Positions 9,828 through 36,950 of a stretch of DNA of 39,139 nt are shown here, piece after piece; position 1 is the stretch's first letter; each line of letters begins with the position of its first letter. This DNA is from Alphaproteobacteria bacterium. GTDB taxonomy: Bacteria > Pseudomonadota > Alphaproteobacteria > SHVZ01. The stretch covers positions 1 through 39,139 of the forward strand of contig SHVZ01000024.1 of assembly GCA_009694025.1 (NCBI GenBank), given 5' to 3'. The notes under the pieces are model-generated. The model made no database searches. It saw only the letters and a program-made list of their open reading frames with translations, and was not told the DNA's origin. A program made the translations under genes and the position numbers.

Positions 9828-11411
9828 TCAGTCGAAGTAGACGTTGGCGGCGCGCTGGATTCGATACGGCCGGAAATTCTTCACGTTCGACCGAACCGCC
9901 TGCAACTGATTCAAGGCGCCGAAGGGAAGAACCAGCACCTGATCGAGCAGGCGCACCTGGGCGCGGGCGAAGGCGGCCTTGCGGATGTCCGGGGTCGCGC
10001 CGTTCACCATCTCGTCGAAGGCGTCGTTGAACGGCTTGTCGGCGTCCGCCGGCGTCTTCGGCTTGTAGGCGCTCTGCGGGGCGGCGTACTGACGGATGGT
10101 CTGGACCGGGCCCTGCACCGGCCCGTTGCCGCTGGCGTTGAAGAAAAGGTTCCAGCCGGTCGCGGAGTTGGACCACGTCTGCGCCGCCGCCGGCCAGTCG
10201 ACCACCGACAGCTTGACGTTGATGCCGATCGCTTTCAGCTGCTCCGCCACGACCAGCGAGGCGTTGTACATCGAGGTGTAGTCCTTGTTCGTCAGCAGAA
10301 CCACCTCCTCGCCCTTGTAGCCGGACTCGGTCAGGAGCTGCTTCGCCTTCGCCGGGTTTTTCTGATTGTAGGTCTCCTTGCCGGCGTCGGTGTATTGGGA
10401 CTGGCCGGGGTACTGGAAGCCGACGTTGAGCCGGAAGGCGCCGTCGGAGGCCGACTCCATGATCTCGTCCATGTTGAGCACGGCCTGTATGGCCTGGCGG
10501 AACTTGAGATTGTCGGTCGGCGCAGCCGAGATGTTCACCTCGGCCACCTGGATCCAGAAGTTGTTGAGATAGGTCAGAACGATGTTCTTGTTCTCTTTCA
10601 AGCGTGCCTGGGACGTGACCGGGAGATCCTCGACCGCGTGAAGCCCTCCGGTCTCAATTCCTGCCACCCGTGCGCCGGGCTCGGTGACGATGCGGTAGGT
10701 CACGGTATCGACACAGGCAACCCGATAGCCGGCGAAGCCGTCGGTGTTGTTGTAGCGGGTATCGGGCGTGTAGCCATCGAAGCGCTTCAGCTTCACATGG
10801 CTGTCCGCGACGTTCTCGACGAGCTCGAACGGGCCGGTGCCGATGGACGGCAGCTGCATGGCTGGCGCCGTCGCGTTTTCCGCCGGAATGATCGCGACCG
10901 GCACCAGGAACGAGCTCAAATTCTCGAGGAAGGTGGGCTGCGGCGTCTTCATGTGGATGACGAAGGTCGAGGCGTCCCGTGCCTCCCACTTGTCGACCGG
11001 AGCCAGCATGCCGCGGTCGATGCCCATCTGCTTGTAGCGATCGAACGTGGCAACGACGTCGGCCGTGGTCAGCGGCTTGCCGTTGTGGAACTTGACCCCG
11101 GGCCTGAGCTTGAAGACGTAGGTCTTGCCGTCCGCGCTGGTCTCGACCGAGGCCGCCAGATTCGGCATCACCGCGAAGTTCTCGTCGCGGATCAGCAGGG
11201 TCTCGAAGATGCTCATCGCGATGTTGCGGGTCGAGGCCGCCGCCGAGGTGTGGGTATCCAGGCTGTTGACCTTGGCCTGCTGGCCGAAGACGAAGTCTCC
11301 GCCCTTTTTCGGGCAGGTGAACTGTTGAGCCTCGGCGCCGCCGCTGCCGAGCGCGAGCGCCGCGACCGAGGCCATGATCCATGCCGGCTTGCCGATATGA
11401 GCGAGCGCCAT
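9828..11411 (-). CDS. ABC transporter peptide-type substrate-binding protein (SBP2)
   Basis: The gene encodes a 527-residue periplasmic SBP_bac_5 family protein with a signal peptide ending at GAEA-QQ (about residue 28). The start is ATG at 11411, with AGGAGG upstream. It sits directly before the permease genes and is therefore the natural partner of this importer. It is co-linear with SBP3 (same length, no gaps over the first 240 residues, shared Cys33 and Cys233). The binding site is probably lined by the divergent residues, but the ligand cannot be read. A candidate promoter and a palindromic operator lie upstream. Confidence 0.93.
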   Translation of the reverse strand: MALAHIGKPAWIMASVAALALGSGGAEAQQFTCPKKGGDFVFGQQAKVNSLDTHTSAAASTRNIAMSIFETLLIRDENFAVMPNLAASVETSADGKTYVFKLRPGVKFHNGKPLTTADVVATFDRYKQMGIDRGMLAPVDKWEARDASTFVIHMKTPQPTFLENLSSFLVPVAIIPAENATAPAMQLPSIGTGPFELVENVADSHVKLKRFDGYTPDTRYNNTDGFAGYRVACVDTVTYRIVTEPGARVAGIETGGLHAVEDLPVTSQARLKENKNIVLTYLNNFWIQVAEVNISAAPTDNLKFRQAIQAVLNMDEIMESASDGAFRLNVGFQYPGQSQYTDAGKETYNQKNPAKAKQLLTESGYKGEEVVLLTNKDYTSMYNASLVVAEQLKAIGINVKLSVVDWPAAAQTWSNSATGWNLFFNASGNGPVQGPVQTIRQYAAPQSAYKPKTPADADKPFNDAFDEMVNGATPDIRKAAFARAQVRLLDQVLVLPFGALNQLQAVRSNVKNFRPYRIQRAANVYFD

Positions 11412-14570: not shown

Positions 14571-14617
14571 CACGATTTCCGATGAGGATCGGCTAGCGTC
14601 CCGACCGGAGGTTGCCT

Positions 14618-16099
14618 ATGACCCGTGTGCTCTTCGCCAACCTGTTCCACGAGACCCACACCTTCCTTCCGGAGCCGACCCGGCTTTCGGACTTCGAGGC
14701 GCTGAAGGGCGAAGAGACGTTCCGCCGCCTTGGCGACGGCTCGAACATCGACGGCTTCCTGAGCCGCGCCCGGGCCCACGGCTGGACCGTGTTGCCGACC
14801 GCCGACTACCAAGCGATGCCATCAGGCACCGTCGATCACCAGGTGTTCGAGAGCTTCTGGGCCGACATCGAGCGGGAGATGGCGAAGCTCAAAGGCACGG
14901 CGATCGACGCGGTCTATCTCTCGCTCCACGGCGCCATGGTCACGGACCGCGAGGTCGATCCGGAGGGCGAGCTGCTTGCCCGCCTGCGGCCTCTGTTGCC
15001 TCCGGAGACACCGATGTTCGGCGTCTTCGACCTCCACGCGAATTTCACCCGGAGGATGGCGGAGCTCTCGGACTGCCTCGTCGCCTATCGTGAGAACCCG
15101 CACATCGATGCCCGCGATTCCGCGGTTCGAGCGACCGACCTCCTGGCCGAGGCCTTGAAGACGGGGCGGACCCCGAAGACCTACTGGCGCCATCCACCGC
15201 TGATGTGGCCACCGACCGGCGTCGGCACCGCCGATACCCCGATGCGCGATCTCGAGGCCACCGCCCGCCGGATCGAGGCCGAGGTGCCGGGCGTGCTCGT
15301 CGCCAACGTGGTCGCCGGCTTCGCCTTCGCCGACGTGCCGGACGTAGGTGTTTCCTTCACCATCGTCTCCGGCGGCGATCCCGAGGCGGCGGAAGCGGCG
15401 CTCGACCGGCTGGAGGCCGAGGCGATCCGCTTGAAGGAGGCAGGGGTACCGCGCGACCAGTCGGTCGACGAGGTGCTCGAGAAGATCCTGCCGGTCGAGC
15501 AAGGGCCGGTGCTGCTGGTCGAGCCCTCCGACAACATCGGCGGCGGCACCACCGGCGACGGCACAGGCATCCTGCGCGCGCTTCTCCGGCACAAAGTGCG
15601 TGAGGCCGCCGTCATCATCGCCGATCCGGAGTCGGTCGCGGCCATCGGCAAGACCTTGGTCGGCGACAGCGTGAGCCTCACCGTCGGCGGCAAGCGCAAT
15701 CCCTTCGACGAGGGCCCGGTCACGATGACGGCGACGCTGAGGTCGAAAAGCGATGGGCGCTTTACCCTCGAAGATCCGCGGAGCCACCTCGCCACCTTCG
15801 GGCTCGCCATCGACATGGGCCCCTCGGCGGTGGTCGAGCACGAAGGCATCCAGATCCTGCTGACCAGCCGGAAGATCCCGCCCTGGGATCTGGGACAGCT
15901 CCGCAGCCAGGGGATCGAGCCGACCACGCTCAAGGTGATCGGGATCAAGGCGGCGGTTGCCCATCGCCGCGCCTACGATCCCATCACCGTGGCGAGCTAC
16001 ACGGTCGCGACCCCCGGCCCGGGCATGAGCGACCTCACGAAATTCCCGTACAAGAAGGCGAAGCGCCCGCTCTATCCCCTCGACGACATCGGCGCCTGA
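14618..16099 (+). CDS. M81 family metallopeptidase (MlrC-like), second copy
   Basis: The 493-residue protein has the complete M81 pattern: FHETHTF (His11, Glu12) at the N-terminus, SLHGAMVTDREVDPEG, FDLHAN (Asp138, His140) and NPHIDARD (His162). The likely zinc ligands fall at exactly the same residue numbers as in the first copy. The start chosen is ATG at 14618, with CGGAGG six bases upstream; a TTG two codons earlier is less likely. There is no signal peptide, so it acts in the cytoplasm. It is head-to-head with SBP1 and 26 bases upstream of an exporter gene, probably in one transcript with it. It is expected to be a zinc peptidase or amidase, with unknown substrate. Confidence 0.93.
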   Translation: MTRVLFANLFHETHTFLPEPTRLSDFEALKGEETFRRLGDGSNIDGFLSRARAHGWTVLPTADYQAMPSGTVDHQVFESFWADIEREMAKLKGTAIDAVYLSLHGAMVTDREVDPEGELLARLRPLLPPETPMFGVFDLHANFTRRMAELSDCLVAYRENPHIDARDSAVRATDLLAEALKTGRTPKTYWRHPPLMWPPTGVGTADTPMRDLEATARRIEAEVPGVLVANVVAGFAFADVPDVGVSFTIVSGGDPEAAEAALDRLEAEAIRLKEAGVPRDQSVDEVLEKILPVEQGPVLLVEPSDNIGGGTTGDGTGILRALLRHKVREAAVIIADPESVAAIGKTLVGDSVSLTVGGKRNPFDEGPVTMTATLRSKSDGRFTLEDPRSHLATFGLAIDMGPSAVVEHEGIQILLTSRKIPPWDLGQLRSQGIEPTTLKVIGIKAAVAHRRAYDPITVASYTVATPGPGMSDLTKFPYKKAKRPLYPLDDIGA

Positions 16100-24261: not shown

Positions 24262-25455
24262 ATGTCCGAGCTCTTCGACCGCTTCGGCATCCGCCGGGTC
24301 GTCAATGCCTCCGGCACGGAGACCGTGCATGGCGCGAGCCGCGCCTCCGATCGCGTCGTCCAGGCGGTGGCCTCCATCCTGCCGCACTGGATCGAGATGT
24401 CGGAGCTGCAGCGCGCCGCTAGCGACTCGATCGCCGAGACCACCGGCGCCGAGGCCGGCTTCGTCACCGGCTGCACCGCGGCCGGGATCGCCGTCGCCTC
24501 GGCGGCGGCGATCGCCGGCGACGACCTCGCCAAGGTCGAGCGCCTGCCGGACACGACCGGCCTCAGGAACCGGATCATCCTGCAGAAGGGCCACGAGGTG
24601 AACTACGGCACCACCATCGGCCAGATGATCCGGATCGTCGGCGGCGTGCCGGTCGAGATCGGCACCGCGACCGGCTGCGCCGCCTACCAGCTCGACGGCG
24701 CCATCGACGACCGGACGGCGGCGGCGATCTACGTGCAGTCGCACCACACCGTGCAGAGCGGCCTCATCGACCTGAAGACCTTCTGCGAGGTGGCGCGCGC
24801 CCGCGGCATTCCGGTGATCGTCGATGCGGCGGCCGAATACGACTGGCCGGGGATGATCAAGGTCGGCGCCACCGCCGTCATCTTCTCAGCCCAGAAGGCG
24901 CCGGCCGGCACCACCGCCGGCGTCATCGCCGGCAGCCGCGACTTCATCCGCGCCTGCTACTACCAGGAACGCGGCATCGGCCGTCCGATGAAGGCCGGAA
25001 AGGAAGGCGTCGCCGGCGCCATCGCCGCGCTCGACCAGTGGCGGGAAACCGACCACCAGGCGGTCGCCAAGGCCGAGGCGGCGAGGCTCGACCGGGCCGA
25101 GCAGATGCTGCAGAACATCCGCGGCCTCCGCCTCGAGCGCGAGCCCGATCCGCCGGGCAACCCGTTCGAGCGGCTGATGCTCCACCTCGATCCGCGGGTC
25201 GCACGCATCTCCGCCTTCCAGCTGGGACAGGCGCTGGCGGCGGGGAAGCCGAAGATCGTGCTCCGGACGCTCCACGTCGACCGCGGCTACCTGCTGCTGG
25301 ACGTGCGGCGCATCGACGACGTCGAGCTCGACCTCGTGGTCGCCCGCATCCGCGAGGTGCTGGCCTCGGTGCCGACGGACGCGAAGCCCGAGGTGCCGCC
25401 GACGTCGGGCGACTTGACCAACCGCGGTCTCGCCAAGTGGCTGGCTAGCGCGTGA
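24262..25455 (+). CDS. SelA-like PLP-dependent enzyme (DgaE-type)
   Basis: The 397-residue protein is related to bacterial selenocysteine synthase and to D-glucosaminate-6-phosphate ammonia-lyase. It begins with the typical FGIRRVVNASGTETVHGASRA, and the likely PLP lysine is Lys212 in FSAQKAPAG. No selB, selD or tRNA-Sec is nearby and the length is below that of true SelA (about 460), so a tRNA substrate is unlikely. It probably eliminates ammonia or water from an amino acid or amino sugar acid. The start is ATG at 24262, with GAGGAGA upstream. Its last 11 bases overlap the third M81 gene tail-to-tail. Confidence 0.82.
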   Translation: MSELFDRFGIRRVVNASGTETVHGASRASDRVVQAVASILPHWIEMSELQRAASDSIAETTGAEAGFVTGCTAAGIAVASAAAIAGDDLAKVERLPDTTGLRNRIILQKGHEVNYGTTIGQMIRIVGGVPVEIGTATGCAAYQLDGAIDDRTAAAIYVQSHHTVQSGLIDLKTFCEVARARGIPVIVDAAAEYDWPGMIKVGATAVIFSAQKAPAGTTAGVIAGSRDFIRACYYQERGIGRPMKAGKEGVAGAIAALDQWRETDHQAVAKAEAARLDRAEQMLQNIRGLRLEREPDPPGNPFERLMLHLDPRVARISAFQLGQALAAGKPKIVLRTLHVDRGYLLLDVRRIDDVELDLVVARIREVLASVPTDAKPEVPPTSGDLTNRGLAKWLASA

Positions 25456-26920
25456 GCGGGTAGAGGGTCTTCGGCGCCTTCTTGAACGGGAATTGGCTGA
25501 AGTCGTAGGCCGCCGGTCCCGGCGCGTCGATGTCGATCATCTCGCGGAAGGTCGAGCCGAACGAGGCGCGGAACTGGTTCTTCGCCTTGACGGCGAGAAC
25601 CGCGAGCTTCTCGAGGTCGATGCCGCCCACCCGGAAGAAGTCCGGATCGGTCGTGTCGTGGCAGATGCCGGTGATCATCACGGAGATCGGCAATCCCACG
25701 AGATCGAGGCGGGCGCAACCCTTGAGATCGGCGCCGAGACCGGTATAGACGGGGCCGACATTGGTGAACTTGCCGTCGGAGAGATGGCCGACCGTCACCT
25801 CGGCTTCGACCGGCGGACCGAAGAGCGGCGTGAGCCGTCCGCCGAGCCTGACCTTGAGCCGCGCGCCGATCCCGGCGGCCTTGGCCTCGGCGAGAAGATC
25901 CGGATCGTGGAAGAAGGCGAAGGCCGTCGGCTTGGCCGGCTTGGCGGCGATCAGCGCCGCGAGCAAACCGGGCGTGTCGCCGATGCCGCCGGCGCCGGTG
26001 TGGTCGGCGGAATCGATGACGGCGATCGGCCCTTGGGCGGCGACGAGCGCGCGGGCGATGCCCTCGGCCGCGGTCGGCAGCTTCTTGAAGAGGAGCGGGC
26101 GGCGCTTGTTCATCGCCTCGACCAGCTCGGTCGCGCCCTTCAGCGCGAGCGCGCGGTCGCCGTCGGCGGTGGCCCAGGCGGAGGCGCCGGCCGCCTCGCT
26201 GTCGGCATAGGCGTAGCCCTGATAGGGCGTGAGATCGAGGAGGCCGTATTTCTTCTCGATGTCGGCGGCGATCTGCTTCACCTCGGCCATCGGGCCGTCG
26301 GTGGTGCGCGCGAACAGGCTCGGGATGATGGCGTCGGCGCGGACGATCACGGCCACCGGCTTGATCTCGCCCTTCACGCGCCGCTCCAGCAGGTCGAGGG
26401 CCTTGGTCGCGGTCTCCGCCATGTCCGTATGCGGGTGGCACTTGTAGCCGACGACGATGTCGGGGATGTCGGCCTCGGCCTGGCTGACATTGGCATGGAG
26501 GTCGAAGCTGACGGCGAGCGGCGTGTCCCTGCCGATGATGGCGCGGACGCGCCGTACGATCTCCAGGTCGGCATGGGTGTATTCCGCCGTGTTGAGAGAG
26601 CCATGCAGCGACAGGAACACCGCGTCCCAGCGACGCTTGGAAAGACCGGTCGTGATCTCGCCGAATATCCTGTCGAAGACGCCCGGCGCCAGAACGCCGG
26701 AAGAAGGGGCGCCGGCGCAGCGGAGATAGGTCGGCTTCCAGCCCGGCCGCCTCTCCAACCAGGCGATCGCGCCGCCGATCTCCGTCTTGGTGCCGCGATA
26801 GTATTTCGTCACACCGTCGCCGACCTGCCATTCGCCGCCGGTGAAGCACTCGATCGGCGTCGGGATCGGCGAGAAGCTGTTGCCCTCATGGGCGAAGCGG
26901 GCGATGGCGATGTCGGGCAT
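25445..26920 (-). CDS. M81 family metallopeptidase (MlrC-like), third copy
   Basis: The 491-residue protein has FAHEGNSF (His11, Glu12), LSLHGSLN, FDLHAN (Asp140, His142) and CHPHTDMAE (His164), the presumed zinc-binding pattern of M81. The C-terminal domain carries SADHTGAGGIGDTPG, the glycine-rich loop shared with the fourth copy but not with the first. The start chosen is ATG at 26920; a GTG three codons earlier (26929) is possible, and neither has a strong ribosome binding site. The enzyme is cytoplasmic. It is head-to-head with the COG3964 amidohydrolase and overlaps the SelA-like gene by 11 bases. The substrate is unknown. Confidence 0.93.
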   Translation of the reverse strand: MPDIAIARFAHEGNSFSPIPTPIECFTGGEWQVGDGVTKYYRGTKTEIGGAIAWLERRPGWKPTYLRCAGAPSSGVLAPGVFDRIFGEITTGLSKRRWDAVFLSLHGSLNTAEYTHADLEIVRRVRAIIGRDTPLAVSFDLHANVSQAEADIPDIVVGYKCHPHTDMAETATKALDLLERRVKGEIKPVAVIVRADAIIPSLFARTTDGPMAEVKQIAADIEKKYGLLDLTPYQGYAYADSEAAGASAWATADGDRALALKGATELVEAMNKRRPLLFKKLPTAAEGIARALVAAQGPIAVIDSADHTGAGGIGDTPGLLAALIAAKPAKPTAFAFFHDPDLLAEAKAAGIGARLKVRLGGRLTPLFGPPVEAEVTVGHLSDGKFTNVGPVYTGLGADLKGCARLDLVGLPISVMITGICHDTTDPDFFRVGGIDLEKLAVLAVKAKNQFRASFGSTFREMIDIDAPGPAAYDFSQFPFKKAPKTLYPLTR

Positions 26921-26981
26921 GGGGCTCACCGAAGGGAAGGATGCATCGCTTATAGCAAGCTTCGCATCCGACCCGTTATCA

Positions 26982-26998
26982 TTCGCGTACCGTGCGAA
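26982..26998. promoter_or_regulatory. Inverted repeat in the third M81 / amidohydrolase spacer
   Basis: TTCGC-N7-GCGAA lies in the 95-base spacer between the divergent start codons. A second pair, GGATGC (26939-26944) and GCATCC (26964-26969), lies nearby. Either could be an operator, but both are short and could be chance. Confidence 0.25.
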
Positions 26999-27015
26999 AT
27001 CTCCCGGAGCCGGCG

Positions 27016-28188
27016 ATGACCTACGACCTGCTGCTCAAGGGCGGCCATGTGATCGATCCGGCCACCGGCCGCGACGGCGTTCTCGACGTGGCCTTCGCCG
27101 GCGGCAAGGTCGCCGCGGTCGCCGAGCGGATCTCCGAGGCCGATGCCCGCGAGGTGCGCCAGGCCGGAGGATTCTATGTCGTCCCCGGGCTGATCGACCT
27201 GCACACCCATGTCTACTGGGGCGGCACGGTCTACGGCGTCGACCCTGACAAGCTGGCGCGCGCGTCGGGCATGACCACCGCGGTCGATGCCGGCAGCGCC
27301 GGTGCGGCGAACATCCGGGGACTGGTCGACCTGCAGCAGTCGAGGACCGACATCCGTCTCCTCGCCTTCGTCAACCTGACCTTCCCAGGCATCTACGGCG
27401 ACCTCCGCGCCGTGGCCGTCGCGGAGGCCGACGACCTCCGCCTTCTCAACGTGCCCCATGTGGTCAGGACGCTGAAGACGTGGCCCGATCAGGTGGTCGG
27501 CATCAAGATCCGCGTCGGCCGCTCCTCGACCGGCGCCCTCGGCGCGATGCCGCTCCACCTCGCCATCAGCGCGTCGGAGCAGGCCGGCAACGCGCCGGTC
27601 ATGGCCCATATCGGCGCCGACATGCCGCCGCGCCTGGAGGAGATCATGGATCCGCTGCGCCAGGGCGACATCGTCACCCATTGCTACACGCCGAAGATGA
27701 ACAAGCCGCTGACCACCAAAGGTCAGCTCCGCGACTGCATGGTCGCCGGGCGCGAGCGCGGCGTGATCATGGATGTCGGCCACGGCGCCGGCTCCTTCGG
27801 CTTCGACGTCTGCCGCGCCATGCTGGAGCTGGGCTTCGCGCCGGACGTTATCTCCTCCGACGTCCATCTCTACTCGGCCGACGGTCCCGCCTACGACGTG
27901 CTCGTCACCATGTCGAAGTTCCTCTGCCTCGGGCTGCCGCTGGCCGACGTGATCCGCGCCGCAACCTCGGCGCCGGCGGCGGCGATGCGACGGACGGACA
28001 TCGGCACGCTGAAGCCGGGCGCCGCCGGCGACGCGGCCCTGCTCGAGATCAGGAAGGGCCCGGTCGCCTATGTCGACGCCATCGGCGGCGAGATGAAGGC
28101 GGACAAGCGGCTGGTGCCGCGCGGCATCGTGCTCGGCGGCAAATGGTGGAGCGACGGCATGGCGCCGACGCTCAACGGTGGGAGGTAA
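27016..28188 (+). CDS. COG3964 amidohydrolase/deacetylase family metallohydrolase
   Basis: The 390-residue protein belongs to the amidohydrolase superfamily. Its metal ligands are the HxH of GLIDLHTH (His63, His65), carbamylated Lys164 (VGIKIRVG), His198 (MAHIG), His222 (THCYTPKMN) and Asp282 (SSDVHL). Members were once called dihydroorotase; a studied Agrobacterium homologue (Atu3266) hydrolyses acetylated hydroxy acids. The start is ATG at 27016, with GGAG six bases upstream; the GTG at 26992 is less likely. As I recall, genes of this family often sit beside SelA-like genes, and here the SelA-like gene is one gene away. The last 17 bases overlap the dimethylformamidase-like gene tail-to-tail. 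Confidence 0.88.
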   Translation: MTYDLLLKGGHVIDPATGRDGVLDVAFAGGKVAAVAERISEADAREVRQAGGFYVVPGLIDLHTHVYWGGTVYGVDPDKLARASGMTTAVDAGSAGAANIRGLVDLQQSRTDIRLLAFVNLTFPGIYGDLRAVAVAEADDLRLLNVPHVVRTLKTWPDQVVGIKIRVGRSSTGALGAMPLHLAISASEQAGNAPVMAHIGADMPPRLEEIMDPLRQGDIVTHCYTPKMNKPLTTKGQLRDCMVAGRERGVIMDVGHGAGSFGFDVCRAMLELGFAPDVISSDVHLYSADGPAYDVLVTMSKFLCLGLPLADVIRAATSAPAAAMRRTDIGTLKPGAAGDAALLEIRKGPVAYVDAIGGEMKADKRLVPRGIVLGGKWWSDGMAPTLNGGR

Positions 28189-30514
28189 CCGGGGGCGGGC
28201 TCCCGACGCCTCCACCTACCGGCTTGCCGTCAGGTCCGGTCGGCGTTCGTTCCGTCTTGTCCGCCTTGAATGGCGCCACCTTGAACGGTGTCGGGTCGAT
28301 GAAGCGCTCGACCGCGTTGGTCATCATCCTGGTCAGCACGTTGTCGTAGTTGTCGACCGGCAGCGCGCCGACGAAGCACATCGAGCCGACCGAGAGCACC
28401 GCTCCGCCTGACGGCGTCTCGAAGAAGGTCAGGTCGGAGCGCATCAGATCCTCCGGCTTGCCCGGCCAGAACTGGTTGAGGCGGTCTTCGTTGACCGGTC
28501 CGTAGTCGGGGTGGCCGAGGACGTGGCCTTCGGCGATCACCAGCGCGTTCCGGGGCGTGCCGAGATGATAGTCGATGCGGTCGAGTTCGTGGCCGACCGC
28601 GCCGCCGCCCATGTGGCCGCGCTCGCCGATCGTGACGCCCGAGGTGAGCTGGTTTTCGATGCCTTTCCTCAGGAACGCCACGCGCGGGTCCATGATTCCC
28701 TCGGTCGTCTTGTAGGGGTGGCCGTTGTAGGTGCCCTGGGCGGTGAAGCTGATGCCGACCAGCTTGTGCGAGCTGCGGCCGATCCGCCGCCAGAGGCCGC
28801 CATAGCTGCCGTCGAAGGCGTGATAACCCTCGCCGACCTCGGTCGCCCAGACGCGGACGCCGCTCTCGGCGCGGCGGACCTCCATCGCCCACGGGGCTTG
28901 GCTGTGGAACACCGCCTTCCAGTAGAAGCCGTTGCCGCCGAGATAGAAGAGCCGGCCGCCGCCGTCGAGATAGCCCTTGAGCCCGTCCAGCGTCTCGTCG
29001 GTGTGGTATTCCGGGTGCTGGCAGGTGATGACCAGGGAGTAGGGCTTGAGCAGGTCCGCGCCCTCGGCGTGGAGATCGTGGTCGGTCAGGATGTCGTGCT
29101 CGAAGCCCTTCCGGGTCAGCCAGTCGACGATGTAGCTGTCGACGTTGAGCCAGTAGGTGCCGGAGCCGATCTCGCTCTGGTCCAGCATGATGAAGTGGTT
29201 GAAGCGTTTGTCGACCATCGGCCGCGCCATCGAGGCGTGGGTCACGCCGCTGCCGTCGGAGTGGTAGTTGTAGGGCGAGAGCCCGAGCTCCGGGTTCTCG
29301 TCCGGCTGCTGGGTGAGCGCGCCCCAGGACTCGGCGCGGGCGCGGTTCTGCGCCCCGAAGCCCGGCCGCACGAACTGGCTGTAGACGTGATAGGTGATGG
29401 TCGGCAGCAGGATCGCGATCTTCGCCTTCTTCCCGCCGTCGGCTGGGCGGACGAAGAACGGCACGTTGTCGATCCCGGCGGCGCTCTTGAGGTGGATCGC
29501 ATACATCCCCGACGGCCAGTCCTTCGGGATCTCGATGTCGAGCGCCTTCTCCCAGCCGACATCGCCGATGTCGTCGTCGTGAAAGTGGATGGCGCCCCAC
29601 TCCTCCGGCAGGTGGGTCCAGCGGTGCTCGCGCCCCGACCAGTTGGATCCCGTCATCGCCCGGTCGGGCATGTTCTCGACGATGCCGTTGAAGCCATGCG
29701 GTCCGACATCGGCGAGGTCGAAGGTCGGGATGCCGACGGAGAAGTCCCAACAGGCCAAGAGCCTTGGCGGACTGTCCTTCGGCACCGGACCCTTCTGGGC
29801 CGCGAGCGCCGCCTTGGCGTCGGTCCCCGCCCAGATCGTCGGGCGCTCGATCTTGCCGTTGTAGTGGGCGGTCGGCTTCGCGCCGGGCTTGTCGCCGGGA
29901 ACGGCGGCGACGAGCGCCGATCCCGCGCCGAGCTTCAGTGCCGCGGGAAGCGCGATCGAGGCCTCACCGCTATCGTCGAAGCCCGGATGGCCTTCGCGCG
30001 GGCGCTGGCCGATGGTGAGCTTCTTCCCGGCGGCGTCGACGACCAGCCAAAGGTCGTACCAGGCGCGTTCCAGCAGCATCCTGCCGGCCGAGACGCTGGT
30101 GGTGCGGCCGCCCGCGATCACCGTGGCGACGGCGCCGTCGCGCTCTATCTCGAGCGCGACGCGCGTGCCGTCGGTGCCGGTCCAGGCGAAGACGCCCTGA
30201 CGGCCCTTCTTCGGCGTGGTCGGCCATGCCGTGACCACCAGGGTGAGCCCGTTTGCCGCCGCCGTCAGGTCGAGCGAGGGGATATGGCCCCAGGAGCCGA
30301 GATGCGTCCCCTGCTCCTTGCCCGGATGCGAACCGTCGGTCGCATGGGGCATCTCGATCTCGCGGTAGCCCGGCCCCTTGGGGTTGGGGTCGCCGCAGAG
30401 GATGCGGGCGATCCGGGTCTCGAACGGCGCGTTCTTGGCGCTTCCGACCCTGAGGGTGACGGTGCCGCCGGGCTTGACGCTCCAGCGATCGATATAGCCC
30501 AGCAGCGGATGCAC
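28172..30514 (-). CDS. N,N-dimethylformamidase large-subunit-like protein
   Basis: The 780-residue protein resembles the large (beta) subunit of N,N-dimethylformamidase, which cleaves dimethylformamide to dimethylamine and formate. The N-terminal half looks like a LamG/concanavalin-type beta-sandwich (around 90-240). The C-terminal half has KIAILLPTITYHVYSQF, ELGLSPYNYHSDGSG, CQHPEYHTDETLDGL and YLGGNGFYW. Dimethylformamidase uses one iron held by two Tyr and one Glu. Tyr375/Tyr378, Tyr415/Tyr417 and Glu502 are candidates here by motif and spacing (inference). No gene for the small subunit, about 130 residues, is in the window. The start is ATG at 30514. It lies 57 bases after the frameshifted isochorismatase-type gene, probably in one operon. 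Confidence 0.82.
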   Translation of the reverse strand: MHPLLGYIDRWSVKPGGTVTLRVGSAKNAPFETRIARILCGDPNPKGPGYREIEMPHATDGSHPGKEQGTHLGSWGHIPSLDLTAAANGLTLVVTAWPTTPKKGRQGVFAWTGTDGTRVALEIERDGAVATVIAGGRTTSVSAGRMLLERAWYDLWLVVDAAGKKLTIGQRPREGHPGFDDSGEASIALPAALKLGAGSALVAAVPGDKPGAKPTAHYNGKIERPTIWAGTDAKAALAAQKGPVPKDSPPRLLACWDFSVGIPTFDLADVGPHGFNGIVENMPDRAMTGSNWSGREHRWTHLPEEWGAIHFHDDDIGDVGWEKALDIEIPKDWPSGMYAIHLKSAAGIDNVPFFVRPADGGKKAKIAILLPTITYHVYSQFVRPGFGAQNRARAESWGALTQQPDENPELGLSPYNYHSDGSGVTHASMARPMVDKRFNHFIMLDQSEIGSGTYWLNVDSYIVDWLTRKGFEHDILTDHDLHAEGADLLKPYSLVITCQHPEYHTDETLDGLKGYLDGGGRLFYLGGNGFYWKAVFHSQAPWAMEVRRAESGVRVWATEVGEGYHAFDGSYGGLWRRIGRSSHKLVGISFTAQGTYNGHPYKTTEGIMDPRVAFLRKGIENQLTSGVTIGERGHMGGGAVGHELDRIDYHLGTPRNALVIAEGHVLGHPDYGPVNEDRLNQFWPGKPEDLMRSDLTFFETPSGGAVLSVGSMCFVGALPVDNYDNVLTRMMTNAVERFIDPTPFKVAPFKADKTERTPTGPDGKPVGGGVGSPPPVTSHR

Positions 30515-30571: not shown

Positions 30572-31296
30572 TCAAGACTTGGCCTGTTCCACCGCCGCGA
30601 TCACCTCGCCCGCGCTCCACACCTGGCCGAAGACCCGGGCGAAGCCGGAAAGCGCGGCGCGGTGGTGATGCTCGAAAAAGGTCGCCGACGCGTCCTCGGC
30701 GATGATGACGTTGAAGCCGCGGTCGGCGGCGTCGCGCGAGGTCGTCTCCACGCACATGTCGGTCGCCATGCCGGCGACCACCAGGGTCTCGATGCCCATG
30801 TTGCGGAGCATCCATTCGATGCCGGTCGAGTTGAAGGCACTGGAGGTGTTCTTGTCGATCACCAGCTCGCCGGCCTTAGGGGCCAGCGCCGCGATCACCT
30901 CGTGCTCGAAGCTGCCCTTGCTCCACAAAGTCGGCGTGTTGGTGGTGGTAACGGAGTCGGTGTCGCGCCGGCGGCGGCGGAGGATCATGTCGCTCCCGTC
31001 CGGCAGCAGCGGCCCGTGGCGGGTGAAGAGGACCCGGCGGCCGGCACGGCGGAAGGCGGTCAAGAGGCGCTTGGCGCCGGGATGACCGTGTCCATCAGGC
31101 GCGGCACGTAGTAGCCGGCGATCTCCGGGTAGCGGAGCGACAGCATCTGGGCCACGCCGGCGTCCGGGTTGCAGCCGTAGTTCTGCATGTCGATGACGAT
31201 CAGCGCCGACTTTTTCCAGTCGACCTCGAAGCTCGGCCACGGCATGTGCCAGCCGGGCAGGGTGGTCGGCGAGTCGATCGGATTCTGTTCGGTCAT
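30572..31296 (-). pseudogene. Isochorismatase-family cysteine hydrolase, frameshifted
   Basis: Codons from ATG 31296 (GGGAGGAG upstream) encode the N-terminal half with SALIVIDMQN, carrying the catalytic Asp. The frame runs into a stop (31060-31062) just after DTVIPAPSAS. The second half, KRLLTAFRRAGRRVLFTRHG onward, is in another frame and holds Lys in LVIDKNTSSAF and the nucleophile in VAGMATDMCVETT. One missing base near 31078-31082 explains the break. With it restored, the product would be about 241 residues, in the size range of N-carbamoylsarcosine amidase/nicotinamidase-like enzymes. All catalytic residues are otherwise present, so this is either a recent mutation or a sequencing indel. 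Confidence 0.85.
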
Positions 31297-31359
31297 GGCG
31301 GCTCCTCCCGCCGGGCATGCTAGGCTTAACCCCTGCATTCGTCATTGCCCGAGGTTCCC

Positions 31360-32799
31360 ATGTCCTCCGACCTGCTGGCGCTCTCGGCGACCGAGGCCGC
31401 GCGCCTGATCCGCTGGAAGAAGCTCTCTCCCGTCGAGTACGTGGGCGCGATCCTGGCGGCGATCGAGCGCTCCCAGCCCGTGCTCAACGCATTCACCGTG
31501 GTGACGGCGGAGGCGGCCCTTGAGCAGGCGCGGATCGCCGAGGGCGCGGCGATGGCCGGCGCCGCGCTCGGGCCGCTTCACGGTCTCCCCGTCAGCATCA
31601 AGGACCTGGTGGACACGGCCGGCGTGCCGACGTCCTACGGCTCGGCCGTCCATAAGGGCCGTGTGCCGACCAAGGACGCCTCGACGGTGCGGCGGCTGAA
31701 AGAGGCCGGCGGCATCCTCGTCGGCAAGACGACGACGCCGGAATATGGCCACAAGGGCCTGACCGACAGCCCGGCCTTCGGCATCACCCGTAATCCCTGG
31801 AACCTCGACTACTCACCCGGCGGCTCGTCCGGCGGGGCCGCCGCCCATGTCGCCGCCGGCCTCGGCCCCCTGGCGCTCGGCACCGATGGCGCCGGCTCGA
31901 TCCGGCTGCCGGCTTCGGCCTCCGGCATCGTGGGATTGAAGCCGACGCGCGGCGCGGTTGGGCATGGCTATGCGCCTGATGTCTTCTCCAGCTTCTCCTA
32001 TTCCGGCCCGATGACGCGGACCGTCGCCGATGCCGCCCTGATGTTCGACATTCTCGTCGGGCCGGAGCCTGACGATCCCTGGAGCCTGGGCGGTACGCTG
32101 ACGCCGGTCTCTGCCGGCCTCCTCGGCAACCGCATCGGCGGCCTCCGGATCGGTTACATCCGCCGCATGGCGAACGCGGACGTCGACCGCGAGGTCGAGG
32201 CGGCGACCGACTCAGCGCTCGCGACGCTGGCCGACCTCGGCGCCGAGGTCGAGGAGGTGACAGACAAGATCGACTGGATCGAGGAGGACGGCCGCATCCT
32301 GATGCGGACCGGCATGTGGGCGAGGAGCCGCGCCCATCTCGAGCGCTGGGGCAACCAGCTCGACTCCAGCTACCGCGACTTCATGGAGGACGGGCGGAAG
32401 ATCTCGATGGAGCGCCTGCGCGAGGCCGAGGGTGCTCGCACCCAGCTCTACCAGGCGGTCCAGCACCTGTTCGGCCGCTACGACCTGCTGGCCTCGCCGA
32501 CGCTGGTGACGCCGGCGCTGCCGGTCACCCACCACGCCTCCCGCGACCAGGTGATGGTCAACGGCAAGCCCCAGGGCTTCACCCGCACCGGCTGGACCTC
32601 GTTCCTCTATCCCTTCAACCTGACGGGCCATCCGGCGATCTCGATCCCGAACGGCTGGAGCGCCGCAGGGCTGCCGATCGGCTTCCAGCTCGTCGGCCGC
32701 TGGTGGGCGGATCGGGATTTGCTGCGCCTCGCGGCGATGCTGGAGATAGCGCGCCCCTGGTCCCAGCGCCGCCCGCCGCATTGGGGTGGGGTGAAGTAA
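31360..32799 (+). CDS. Amidase (amidase-signature family)
   Basis: The 479-residue amidase-signature hydrolase has the Ser-cisSer-Lys triad: Lys81 (PVSIKDL), Ser156 (GGSSGG) and nucleophile Ser180 (GTDGAGSIRLPAS). The flanking sequence NPWNLDYSPGGSSGG is typical. The start is ATG at 31360, with GAGG five bases upstream; a TTG five codons earlier has no ribosome binding site. It hydrolyses a carboxamide to acid and ammonia in the cytoplasm. It is divergent from the isochorismatase-type gene and could share the amide substrates of the dimethylformamidase-like neighbour. GatA is unlikely because gatB and gatC are absent. Confidence 0.9.
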   Translation: MSSDLLALSATEAARLIRWKKLSPVEYVGAILAAIERSQPVLNAFTVVTAEAALEQARIAEGAAMAGAALGPLHGLPVSIKDLVDTAGVPTSYGSAVHKGRVPTKDASTVRRLKEAGGILVGKTTTPEYGHKGLTDSPAFGITRNPWNLDYSPGGSSGGAAAHVAAGLGPLALGTDGAGSIRLPASASGIVGLKPTRGAVGHGYAPDVFSSFSYSGPMTRTVADAALMFDILVGPEPDDPWSLGGTLTPVSAGLLGNRIGGLRIGYIRRMANADVDREVEAATDSALATLADLGAEVEEVTDKIDWIEEDGRILMRTGMWARSRAHLERWGNQLDSSYRDFMEDGRKISMERLREAEGARTQLYQAVQHLFGRYDLLASPTLVTPALPVTHHASRDQVMVNGKPQGFTRTGWTSFLYPFNLTGHPAISIPNGWSAAGLPIGFQLVGRWWADRDLLRLAAMLEIARPWSQRRPPHWGGVK

Positions 32800-33211: not shown

Positions 33212-33748
33212 TCAGCCCTTCTTCGCCCTGGCGCGATCGATCGCGTCCATCACCAGCTGCTCGGCCTCCGCCGTGCCGACCCATTTGACGATCTTCGCCC
33301 ATTTGCCCTTCTCGAGATCCTTGTAGTGCTCGAAGAAGTGGGCGATCTGCTCGCAAAGCACGACGGGTAGATCCTGATAAGTCTGCACACCCGTGTAGAA
33401 CGGGTAGAGGGCGTCGACCGGCACCGCCAGGATCTTCTCGTCCATCCCGGCATTGTCCTCCATCACCAGGGCGCCGACCGGCCGGCAGCGGATGATGGCG
33501 CCCGGCACCACCGGGACCTGGCCGACGACGATGACGTCGCAGGGATCGCCGTCGCCCGAGAGCGTGTGCGGGATGAAGCCGTAATTCCCCGGATAGAACA
33601 TCGCGGTATGCAGGAAGCGGTCGACGAACAAGGCGCCCGACGCCTTGTCGATCTCGTACTTCACCGGAACGCCGCCGAGCGGGATCTCGATCAGGACGTT
33701 CAGGTCCTTCGGCGGGTTGGGCCCGATCGGGATCTTCGAGATGTCCAT
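33212..33748 (-). CDS. ppa: Inorganic pyrophosphatase (family I)
   Basis: The 178-residue protein is nearly the same length as E. coli PPase. It has FIPHTLSGDGDPCDVIVVG, which contains the family signature of three metal-binding aspartates, with Cys in place of the usual aliphatic residue. KYEIDKASG and YPGNYGFIP also match. It hydrolyses pyrophosphate to phosphate in the cytoplasm. The start is ATG at 33748, whose A is the last base of the upstream TGA (TGATG). It is therefore translationally coupled to the second gamma-glutamyltransferase-family gene, an unusual partner for a housekeeping enzyme. Confidence 0.95.
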   Translation of the reverse strand: MDISKIPIGPNPPKDLNVLIEIPLGGVPVKYEIDKASGALFVDRFLHTAMFYPGNYGFIPHTLSGDGDPCDVIVVGQVPVVPGAIIRCRPVGALVMEDNAGMDEKILAVPVDALYPFYTGVQTYQDLPVVLCEQIAHFFEHYKDLEKGKWAKIVKWVGTAEAEQLVMDAIDRARAKKG

Positions 33749-35373
33749 CAATACGCCAGCGCCCAGCCGTCGCGGCGGGGATCGGAACCGGCCATCTTGA
33801 CGCCGTTCGGCAGGATCCGGATCGCCTCGACGCTGCACGGGCCCTCAAGGTCGCCGACGACCTTCACCGGATGGCCCTTCTTTTTGAGCCCATCGACCGC
33901 GTCCTTCGAGAAGCGGCCTTCGAGGGTCACAGCGTCCTCGCCGGTATGCGGATAATTGGCGGCCTGGCCGGGTTGCATGCAGGTCCAGCGCGGCATCTCC
34001 AGCGCCTGCTGCGGGTCGTAGCCGTGCTCGATCATCGCGATCAGCACCTGGAAGTTCACCTGCACCTGGTTGTCGGCGCCGGGGGTGCCGAAGACGCACC
34101 AGGGTTTGCCGTCCTTGAGGACCAAGGGTGCGTTCATGGTGTGGCGGACGCGCTTGCCGGGCTTCAACTGGTTGGCGTGCCCGTCCTCCAGGTGCCAATA
34201 GGCCATGCGGTTGTTCAAGAGGGTGCCGGTGTCGCCGGCGGTGACGCCGGATCCGAAGGCCGAGTTGATGCTCTGGATCGCCGAGACGGCGTTGCCGTCG
34301 CTGTCCACCACGCAGTAGTACGTGGTGTCGCCGCCGGCGGCGGCGGAGAAGGGCTCGGGCGCCGACGCCTTGTTCCGGTCGATGCGCGACGCGCATTCGT
34401 CGGCATAGGCATCGGAGAGGAGGCGGTCGAGCGGCACGTTGCCGTGGCGCGGGTCGGTGCCGTAGCGCTCGCGGTCGAGGAAGGCGCGTTTGCGGGCCTC
34501 GACCAGCAGATGGATGAGCTCCGGCGAGCCCGGCTTCAGGCTCTTCAAGTCGAAGCGCTCGGCGATCTTGAGCTCCTGCAGCATGACGAAGCCGGTCGAG
34601 TTGGGTGGCGTCTGCCGGACCTCGTAGCCCCGGTACCTGATCGAAATCGGGGCGGCGCGCTCGGCCTGGCAGCCGGCGAGGTCGCGCTCGGTCAGCAGCA
34701 CCCCTTGGGCCTGGCAGGCGGCGGCAATCCGCTTGGCGAGCCGGCCGCGGTAGAAGCCCTCGGCGCCGTCGGCCGCGATCTCCTCCAGCGTCCGGGCCAG
34801 GTCTTCCTGGACGATCAGGCTGCCGATCTCCGGCGCGTTCCCGGTCTTGGGATCGAGGAAGACTTTTTTGCTGCGGGGGTCGGCCGAGAGCATCTTCCGG
34901 TTCTCGCCGGCGAAGTGCGAATAGCCGTGGGTCGCGGCAAATCCCGTGCGGGCGTAGTCGATGGCCGTATCGAACAGCTTCGACCACGGCATCTTGCCGT
35001 GCGCCTTGTGCATGAGCGCGATGCCGGCGACGGTGCCGGGGATCGAGGTCGAGAGCGGGCCGATAACCGGGATGCCGCCATCCTTGCGGTAGCGCTCGAC
35101 GGTGGCGCCCTCCGGTGCCGCGCCGGTGCCGTTGTAGCAGATGCCCTCACCCGAGCCGGCCAGCGCCACGTGATAGAAGCCGTCACCGCCGATGCCGGAC
35201 ATCATCGGCTCGACCACGCCGAGCGTGAAGCAGATGGCGACGCTGGCATCGACGGCGTTGCCGCCGGCGCGCAGAACGTCGAAGCCGGCCTGGGTCGCCA
35301 ACGGATGATTGGTGGCGACGGCGCCGCGGCGTCCCATGATGAGCGGGCGGTGGCTGCGGGGATCGGGAAGCAT
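33748..35373 (-). CDS. Gamma-glutamyltransferase family protein, second copy
   Basis: The 541-residue Ntn-hydrolase has MGRRGAVATNHPLATQAG and GGNAVDASVA at the N-terminus, and the self-cleavage site GGDTTYYCVVDSDGNAVS. Thr350 is the predicted nucleophile. TTY replaces the TTH found in the first copy and most relatives. The C-terminal FGTPGADNQVQ matches the region of the small subunit that closes the active site. The start is ATG at 35373. No signal peptide is present, so it should be cytoplasmic. It is head-to-head with the fourth M81 gene and coupled to ppa downstream. It may act on gamma-glutamyl or similar amide bonds. Confidence 0.9.
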   Translation of the reverse strand: MLPDPRSHRPLIMGRRGAVATNHPLATQAGFDVLRAGGNAVDASVAICFTLGVVEPMMSGIGGDGFYHVALAGSGEGICYNGTGAAPEGATVERYRKDGGIPVIGPLSTSIPGTVAGIALMHKAHGKMPWSKLFDTAIDYARTGFAATHGYSHFAGENRKMLSADPRSKKVFLDPKTGNAPEIGSLIVQEDLARTLEEIAADGAEGFYRGRLAKRIAAACQAQGVLLTERDLAGCQAERAAPISIRYRGYEVRQTPPNSTGFVMLQELKIAERFDLKSLKPGSPELIHLLVEARKRAFLDRERYGTDPRHGNVPLDRLLSDAYADECASRIDRNKASAPEPFSAAAGGDTTYYCVVDSDGNAVSAIQSINSAFGSGVTAGDTGTLLNNRMAYWHLEDGHANQLKPGKRVRHTMNAPLVLKDGKPWCVFGTPGADNQVQVNFQVLIAMIEHGYDPQQALEMPRWTCMQPGQAANYPHTGEDAVTLEGRFSKDAVDGLKKKGHPVKVVGDLEGPCSVEAIRILPNGVKMAGSDPRRDGWALAY

Positions 35374-35486: not shown

Positions 35487-36950
35487 ATGGCCAAACGCTT
35501 GGCGATCGCCAAGTTCGCTCACGAGAGCAACTCCTTCACGCCCGGCGAGACCTGCGACGCCGACTTCCATGCCTATGGCTGGCATCGCGGCGACGAGGCG
35601 GCGGTCCACTACTCCGGCACACGCACGTCCATCGGCGCGGCGATCGATTTCCTCGGCCTCCACCCGGAGTGGCAGGAGACGTTCCTCATCTGCACCGCGG
35701 CGAACCCGGCCGGGCCGGTCGCCGATGCCACTTTCGAGCGGATCATGGGCGAGATCCTGGGCGGGCTCCGCGGCCAGACCTGGGACGCCGTCTATCTCTG
35801 CCTGCACGGCGCCATGCTGCGGGCGGGAAATCCCAAGGCGGACGAGGAGATCATCGACCGGGTGCGACAGGTGGTCGGCAGAACACCGATCGGGGTCAGC
35901 TACGACCTGCATGGCAATCTGGGCGAAGCGCAGGTGAAGAACGCCACCGTCGCCGTCGGCTACAAGACCCATCCGCATGTCGACATGTACGAGACGACCG
36001 AGAAGACGCTCCGGCTCCTCATCGGCACGGTCGAGGGCCGCTTCCGTCCGGTCGGGGCGTTCGCCCGCGTCGAGGCGCTGCTGCCCAGCTTCAACATGCG
36101 AACCACCGGCGACGGGCCGATGGCCGAGCTGGAGGCCATCGCCGCCGAGGCCGAGAAGCGTCACGGATTGCTGGACGTGACCGTGTTCGGCGGATTCCCC
36201 TATGCCGACACGCCCTATGCCGGCGGCTCGGTCATGGTCCATGCGGATGGCGATGCGGCGCTCGCCGAGCGGGTCGCCCGCGAGGTCGCGGCCGAGGCGC
36301 TGAAGCGGGCACCGCGCTTCCAGGTCGAACTGCCGTCGGCAGAAGAAGCGATCCGACAGGCGCTGGCCTCGCCGCCGGGCGTCGCCGTCGTGCTCGAGAA
36401 TTCCGACAACCCGGGCTCCGGCGGTATCGGCGACACGACCGGGCTCTTCGGCGCGCTGATGGTCGCCAAGCCCAAGGTGCCGACCGCCTTCGCTTTCTTT
36501 CGCGACGAGGCGCTCGTCGCCAAGGCGCACGCGGCCGGCGTCGGAGCCACCCTCGATGTGAGCCTCGGCGGCCGGATTTCCGCCCGGTTCGGCGATCCTG
36601 TGCCGGTGCGGGGCAAGGTGACGATGCTGACCGATGGCCGTTTCCGCAACGTCGGCCCGATGTCGACCAACCTCGAGGTCGACCTCGGGCACACCGCCGT
36701 GCTCGACGTCGACCGCGTCAAGGTGATCCTGACCGAGCACTGCCTGACGCCGAACGATCCGGGCTTCCTTTTGATGCACGGAATCGACCCGGCGAAGCTG
36801 CGCCTCCTCTGCGTCAAGGCGAAGAATCACTTCCGCGCCGCCTTTACGCCGTACGCCACGACGATGGTCGACTGCGACAGTCCGGGACCGGCGGCGCTCA
36901 GCCTCAAGCATTTCAAGTTCCGCCACGTGCCGGTCGCGCTCAGACCTTGA
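35487..36950 (+). CDS. M81 family metallopeptidase (MlrC-like), fourth copy
   Basis: The 487-residue protein has FAHESNSF (His12, Glu13), YLCLHGAMLRAGNPKADEE, YDLHGN (Asp140, His142) and THPHVDMYE (His164), the M81 metal-binding pattern. The C-terminal ENSDNPGSGGIGDTTG loop is closest to that of the third copy. The start is ATG at 35487 (MAKRLAIAKF) behind a weak GGGA site, preceded by the promoter at 35410. It is cytoplasmic, since no signal peptide is present. It is head-to-head with the second gamma-glutamyltransferase-family gene, suggesting joint use on the same compounds. The substrate is unknown. Confidence 0.93.
   Translation: MAKRLAIAKFAHESNSFTPGETCDADFHAYGWHRGDEAAVHYSGTRTSIGAAIDFLGLHPEWQETFLICTAANPAGPVADATFERIMGEILGGLRGQTWDAVYLCLHGAMLRAGNPKADEEIIDRVRQVVGRTPIGVSYDLHGNLGEAQVKNATVAVGYKTHPHVDMYETTEKTLRLLIGTVEGRFRPVGAFARVEALLPSFNMRTTGDGPMAELEAIAAEAEKRHGLLDVTVFGGFPYADTPYAGGSVMVHADGDAALAERVAREVAAEALKRAPRFQVELPSAEEAIRQALASPPGVAVVLENSDNPGSGGIGDTTGLFGALMVAKPKVPTAFAFFRDEALVAKAHAAGVGATLDVSLGGRISARFGDPVPVRGKVTMLTDGRFRNVGPMSTNLEVDLGHTAVLDVDRVKVILTEHCLTPNDPGFLLMHGIDPAKLRLLCVKAKNHFRAAFTPYATTMVDCDSPGPAALSLKHFKFRHVPVALRP

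Follow-up and report, generated by a model that had tools for sequence, protein, structure and literature searches.

Background

The dimethylformamidase (DMFase) of Paracoccus consists of a small subunit, DmfA1, and a three-domain large subunit, DmfA2 (PDB entry 6LVB). Its large subunit is inactive by itself, and the Fe ligands are Y399, Y440 and E521: the Y440A and E521A variants are inactive and have lost iron, the H519A variant is inactive, and N547 is named alongside H519 as an active-site residue in the paper describing the structure (PMC7686228). The other solved relative that concerns us here is N-acetyl-(R)-beta-phenylalanine acylase (8HUY, 8I59 and 8I5A), which has the same Tyr/Tyr/His/Glu/Asn positions and no DmfA1 chain in the PDB. 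Searching the PDB with DmfA1 as the query returned DMFase entries only, with no second chain for 8HUY, a result that fits the acylase being single-chain.

We analysed a DNA stretch of 39,139 nucleotides (hereafter the window), which is positions 1 to 39,139 of contig SHVZ01000024.1 of an Alphaproteobacteria genome and encodes a DmfA2-type protein (hereafter the window protein) that has no DmfA1 gene beside it.

The window protein and its active site

The first-pass annotation of the window had placed a dimethylformamidase large-subunit homologue at 28172-30514. These coordinates proved exact, with the gene on the minus strand. The gene and its active-site positions, with row counts taken from the wider alignment described below, are as follows.

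28172..30514, minus strand: DmfA2-type gene for a predicted single-subunit amidohydrolase, 780 aa, GTG start at 30514
29381..29383, minus strand: Tyr378, aligned with Fe ligand Y399; Tyr in 71/71 rows without and 30/30 rows with a DmfA1 neighbour
29270..29272, minus strand: Tyr415, aligned with Fe ligand Y440 and followed by Asn416
29009..29017, minus strand: His500-Pro501-Glu502, at the positions of H519 (catalytic His) and E521 (Fe-ligand Glu); motif HPEY
28931..28933, minus strand: Asn528, aligned with N547

A reading-frame check found the frame intact, without an internal stop. The protein matched the Pfam family DMFA2_C (PF20254) over profile positions 2-373 of 374 (E = 3.2e-80), scoring 270.8 bits against a curated cut-off of 27 bits. 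Its closest PDB sequences were the acylase 8HUY (5e-145, about 36% identity) and then the DMFase large subunit 6LVB (3e-115, about 31-33% identity). An AlphaFold model built with 42 related sequences as input had a mean pLDDT of 89; over its full length, the fold matched 8HUY with a TM score of 0.93 and 6LVB with a TM score of 0.88, making the acylase the best match in both sequence and fold. The N-terminal part of the model resembled pentraxin/laminin-G folds, which bears out the LamG-like region suggested earlier. The window protein is of the DmfA2 type and full-length, comprising Ig-like, pentraxin/LamG-like and ThuA-like domains, and it shares this three-domain arrangement with the large subunit of Paracoccus DMFase. 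Orthologues in three other genomes were 84-86% identical to it.

Five tyrosine and glutamate residues had been put forward as candidates for the iron site. Three of them, Tyr378, Tyr415 and Glu502, align with Y399, Y440 and E521, respectively, and were retained. The other two were dropped: Tyr375 is mostly conserved, yet it does not occupy the place of a ligand, and Tyr417 lacks conservation. In the wider alignment, the two Tyr residues, the His, the Glu and the Asn were invariant in all 71 sequences without a small subunit. In DMFase, F693 enters the pocket from the neighbouring large subunit; the corresponding position in the window protein is Asn680, in a variable loop modelled with low confidence.

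The small subunit in the window, its genome and related genomes

We iterated a DmfA1 profile from the DmfA1 of Paracoccus aminophilus pAMI2 and a Burkholderia vietnamiensis homologue and ran it over all frames of at least 50 aa in the window and in the related loci. No DmfA1-like gene was detected in the window, in agreement with the first-pass annotation, and none was found beside the orthologues of the window gene. A cryptic partner in the unannotated gap at 32.8-33.7 kb was also considered and rejected, as that stretch contains an inorganic pyrophosphatase gene (33212-33838, minus strand).

The window belongs to a metagenome-assembled genome of 3.28 Mb in 105 contigs, about 78% complete. 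Whole-genome searching revealed four DMFA2_C genes and exactly three detectable DmfA1 genes, each of which adjoins one of the other large-subunit genes (G000 C61, C44 and C23), so that only the window copy stands without one. These three paralogues have the domain family and Fe-ligand residues of the window protein but differ from it in having a DmfA1 gene each and in lying on the opposite side of the family tree. One genome with three partnered copies and one unpartnered copy thus offers a clean natural comparison for the role of the small subunit. In the partnered paralogue at C44 (L002), Gln occupies the essential H519 position (NQPEY), with both Tyr residues and the Glu kept.

Searches of other whole genomes gave a consistent pattern. 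No DmfA1 was found anywhere in 19 out of 26 genomes carrying window-side genes. Among relatives, Bradyrhizobium barranii, with a complete chromosome, has a single DMFA2_C gene and no DmfA1, and the closest relative of the window protein (L010, 86% identity) is the sole DMFA2_C gene found in its genome, which likewise lacks DmfA1. Conversely, all 20 DmfA1 genes recovered by the whole-genome searches stand near a large subunit. Taken together, the placement of the DmfA1 genes and the existence of DmfA1-free genomes indicate that the small subunit serves one side of the family as its dedicated partner and that borrowing by the window protein is unlikely. A phylum-wide count of 21 out of 28 genomes with DMFA2_C and no DmfA1 was set aside because it was inflated by distant relatives lacking HPEY and the LamG-like part; when only full-length proteins of the phylum sample were counted, 2 out of 9 genomes had no DmfA1.

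On a tree of 88 large subunits, the state of having an adjacent DmfA1 gene required one change, compared with a mean of about 17 after shuffling, and the branch concerned had an SH-aLRT value of 100. This seed set was skewed toward window-like sequences. We widened the tree to 106 rows by adding full-length members of the genus, the family and an even sample of the phylum, and one change still sufficed, with 30 rows having a DmfA1 neighbour and 71 rows having none. L144, relabelled in the widened tree, had been considered an exception to the split; this was rejected, as its DmfA1 sits just beyond the edge of the locus. The window protein lies on the side without DmfA1, as does the 8HUY acylase, and the three paralogues from its own genome lie on the partnered side. 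Because the tree is unrooted, the partner may have been gained on one side or lost on the other.

The two sides also differ in sequence. The residue after the second Fe-ligand Tyr is Asn in 70 out of 71 unpartnered proteins and Asp in 27 out of 30 partnered ones, and the unpartnered side has three residues fewer just past the first Tyr loop. The window protein has Asn416 where Paracoccus DMFase has Asp441, and it shows the three-residue deletion relative to that enzyme. The Asn416/Asp441 position, beside the second iron-ligand Tyr, offers a testable way to tell the two states apart. The absent small subunit is a trait of the lineage and not a gap. The single-subunit architecture proposed by the first-pass annotation is well supported, with no DmfA1 beside the gene or its orthologues and many host genomes free of DmfA1. 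A small-subunit gene elsewhere in the genome had been named as a point against that architecture; such genes are literally present, but they do not refute it, because each stands beside its own large subunit and many related genomes have none.

Gene neighbourhood

The window gene is surrounded by genes for other hydrolases and for transport.

5.8-9.7 kb of the window: oligopeptide-type ABC transporter
24265-25455, plus strand: SelA-like PLP enzyme, closest solved relative D-glucosaminate-6-phosphate ammonia lyase; in the conserved L011 cluster
25445..26929, minus strand: M81/MlrC-type metallopeptidase-like protein, part of the conserved neighbourhood
26992..28188, plus strand: dihydroorotase-like amidohydrolase, convergent with the DmfA2-type gene and overlapping its 3' end; kept in orthologous loci
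30572..31338, minus strand: isochorismatase-like (biuret-hydrolase-like) amide hydrolase, frame-split in the window
31345..32799, plus strand: amidase-signature hydrolase, intact, nearest solved relative an aryl acylamidase
33748..35373, minus strand: gamma-glutamyltranspeptidase, a neighbour conserved in L011

The gene had been described as lying with two other amide hydrolases. This held for the amidase, which is intact, but the isochorismatase-like gene is split: its N-terminal part lies at 31060-31338 and its C-terminal part in the frame of 30572-31345, with the frameshift near 31060-31085. The orthologous loci L011 and L012 encode this gene intact, and the split in the window may reflect either a genuine mutation or a fault in the assembly.

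L011 and L012 (84-85% identity) share with the window the amidase, isochorismatase-like, DmfA2-type, dihydroorotase-like and MlrC-type genes and the oligopeptide-type ABC transporter; L011 additionally has the gamma-glutamyltranspeptidase, a second MlrC and the SelA-like gene. In L010, a dihydroorotase-like remnant (10584-10787; 68 aa, 66% identity) lies beside the intact DmfA2-type gene, and the remaining cluster is gone. In the sister group at 50% identity (Bradyrhizobium, Roseomonas and relatives), the genes run in the sequence class III aminotransferase, solute-binding protein and DMFA2; the aminotransferase is absent from the window locus. A relative with 50% identity from the genus of the window likewise has a Dpp-type transporter and a solute-binding protein as neighbours.

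Three M81/MlrC-type genes of the window lie within 23 kb of sequence (14612-16099, plus strand; 25445-26929, minus strand; 35487-36950, plus strand), accompanied by three SBP_bac_5 solute-binding proteins and one oligopeptide-type transporter. This part of the window is densely packed with functions for scavenging peptides or amides. Of the window proteins that were scanned, none was recognised as the product of a methylamine or formate gene.

Proposed function and alternative explanations

The window protein is probably an active DMFA2-family amidohydrolase that consists of a single subunit, has an Fe(III) site of the 2-Tyr/1-Glu type and would act on an imported N-acyl or peptide-like amide. 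The substrate would enter through an oligopeptide-type ABC transporter. Tyr378, Tyr415 and Glu502 would bind a mononuclear Fe(III), which, assisted by His500, would polarise the carbonyl and activate water. Hydrolysis of the amide C-N bond would then give a carboxylic acid and an amine, so that the imported amide would release an amine or amino acid. The DmfA1 subunit would not be needed, and the protein would most likely form a homo-oligomer. The gene, its fold, its active-site residues, the split on the tree and the absence of a partner gene are shown by the data; the metal, the activity without a partner and the oligomeric state of the window protein are inferred. That such genes occur in genomes with no DmfA1 would imply that they function without it.

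The substrate class is a more tentative assignment, to which we give slightly less than even weight. It draws on the oligopeptide-type transporters and class III aminotransferases found beside relatives and on the precedent of the acylase, which together suggest an imported amide of the N-acyl or peptide-like kind. The likeliest candidates are an N-acyl amine, an N-acyl (perhaps beta-) amino acid or some other peptide-like amide. The substrate of the acylase itself is not transferable to the window protein, given their identity of about 36% and their different subgroups, and the same two observations argue against strict orthology. The loci also differ: the acylase relatives L006 and L007 have a class III aminotransferase neighbour, whereas the window locus has none. 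A new substrate for the window protein, as suggested earlier, is plausible. Its novelty is weaker than was proposed: with a solved acylase already on the same branch, the window protein is not the first single-subunit member but a real, fairly ordinary addition to a branch that works without the small partner.

We weighed several other explanations. The protein could still work as a DMFase-like enzyme of two subunits by using one of the three DmfA1 proteins encoded elsewhere in its genome, as might be expected from the requirement of the Paracoccus large subunit for its partner (PMC7686228). We regard this as quite improbable, because every DmfA1 found adjoins its own large subunit, L010 and the single-copy Bradyrhizobium relatives reside in DmfA1-free genomes, and the tree splits cleanly by partner presence. 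That the small subunit is missing merely through assembly gaps or a rearranged locus is scarcely credible, even for an incomplete genome in many contigs: the gene lies inside its contig, with sequence on either side of it, the L011 and L012 orthologues have the same neighbours with no small gene between them, and the absence holds across the whole branch.

The inactivity of the isolated Paracoccus large subunit means that absence of the partner could also signify an inactive protein, but the conservation of the site speaks against this. That the protein is a degenerate or non-enzymatic homologue would be in keeping with the split isochorismatase frame next to it and with the mere remnant of the dihydroorotase-like neighbour in L010. 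The intact frame, the high identity to orthologues in three other genomes and the invariance of all five active-site residues make this very unlikely. A functional one-subunit DMFase that hydrolyses N,N-dimethylformamide or other small formamides would have the same catalytic residues and fold, and we consider it unlikely but the least so of these alternatives; both sequence and fold are closer to the N-acyl amino acid acylase than to DMFase, the gene is surrounded by oligopeptide-type transporters and other amide or peptide hydrolases, and methylamine or formate genes were not recognised among the scanned window proteins.

A single-subunit amidohydrolase acting on an imported amide remains our preferred reading. 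Much of the family tree lacks a partner gene yet keeps the iron-site residues, even though the isolated DMFase large subunit is reported to be inactive. On a broader reading, which we hold with even confidence for and against, the branch without DmfA1 would constitute a large and for the most part uncharacterised family of iron amidohydrolases with a single subunit and a 2-Tyr-1-Glu site, present in several bacterial phyla. The window subgroup would then act on a natural substrate of the N-acyl or peptide-like kind that differs from the substrates of DMFase and of the known acylase, within a scavenging cluster of an ABC transporter and other amide or peptide hydrolases.

The DMFA2_C domain also occurs in other architectures: in L131, L140 and L143, it lies within frames of more than 1,000 residues, together with DUF4082, cadherin-like and bacterial Ig domains and with no HPEY motif.
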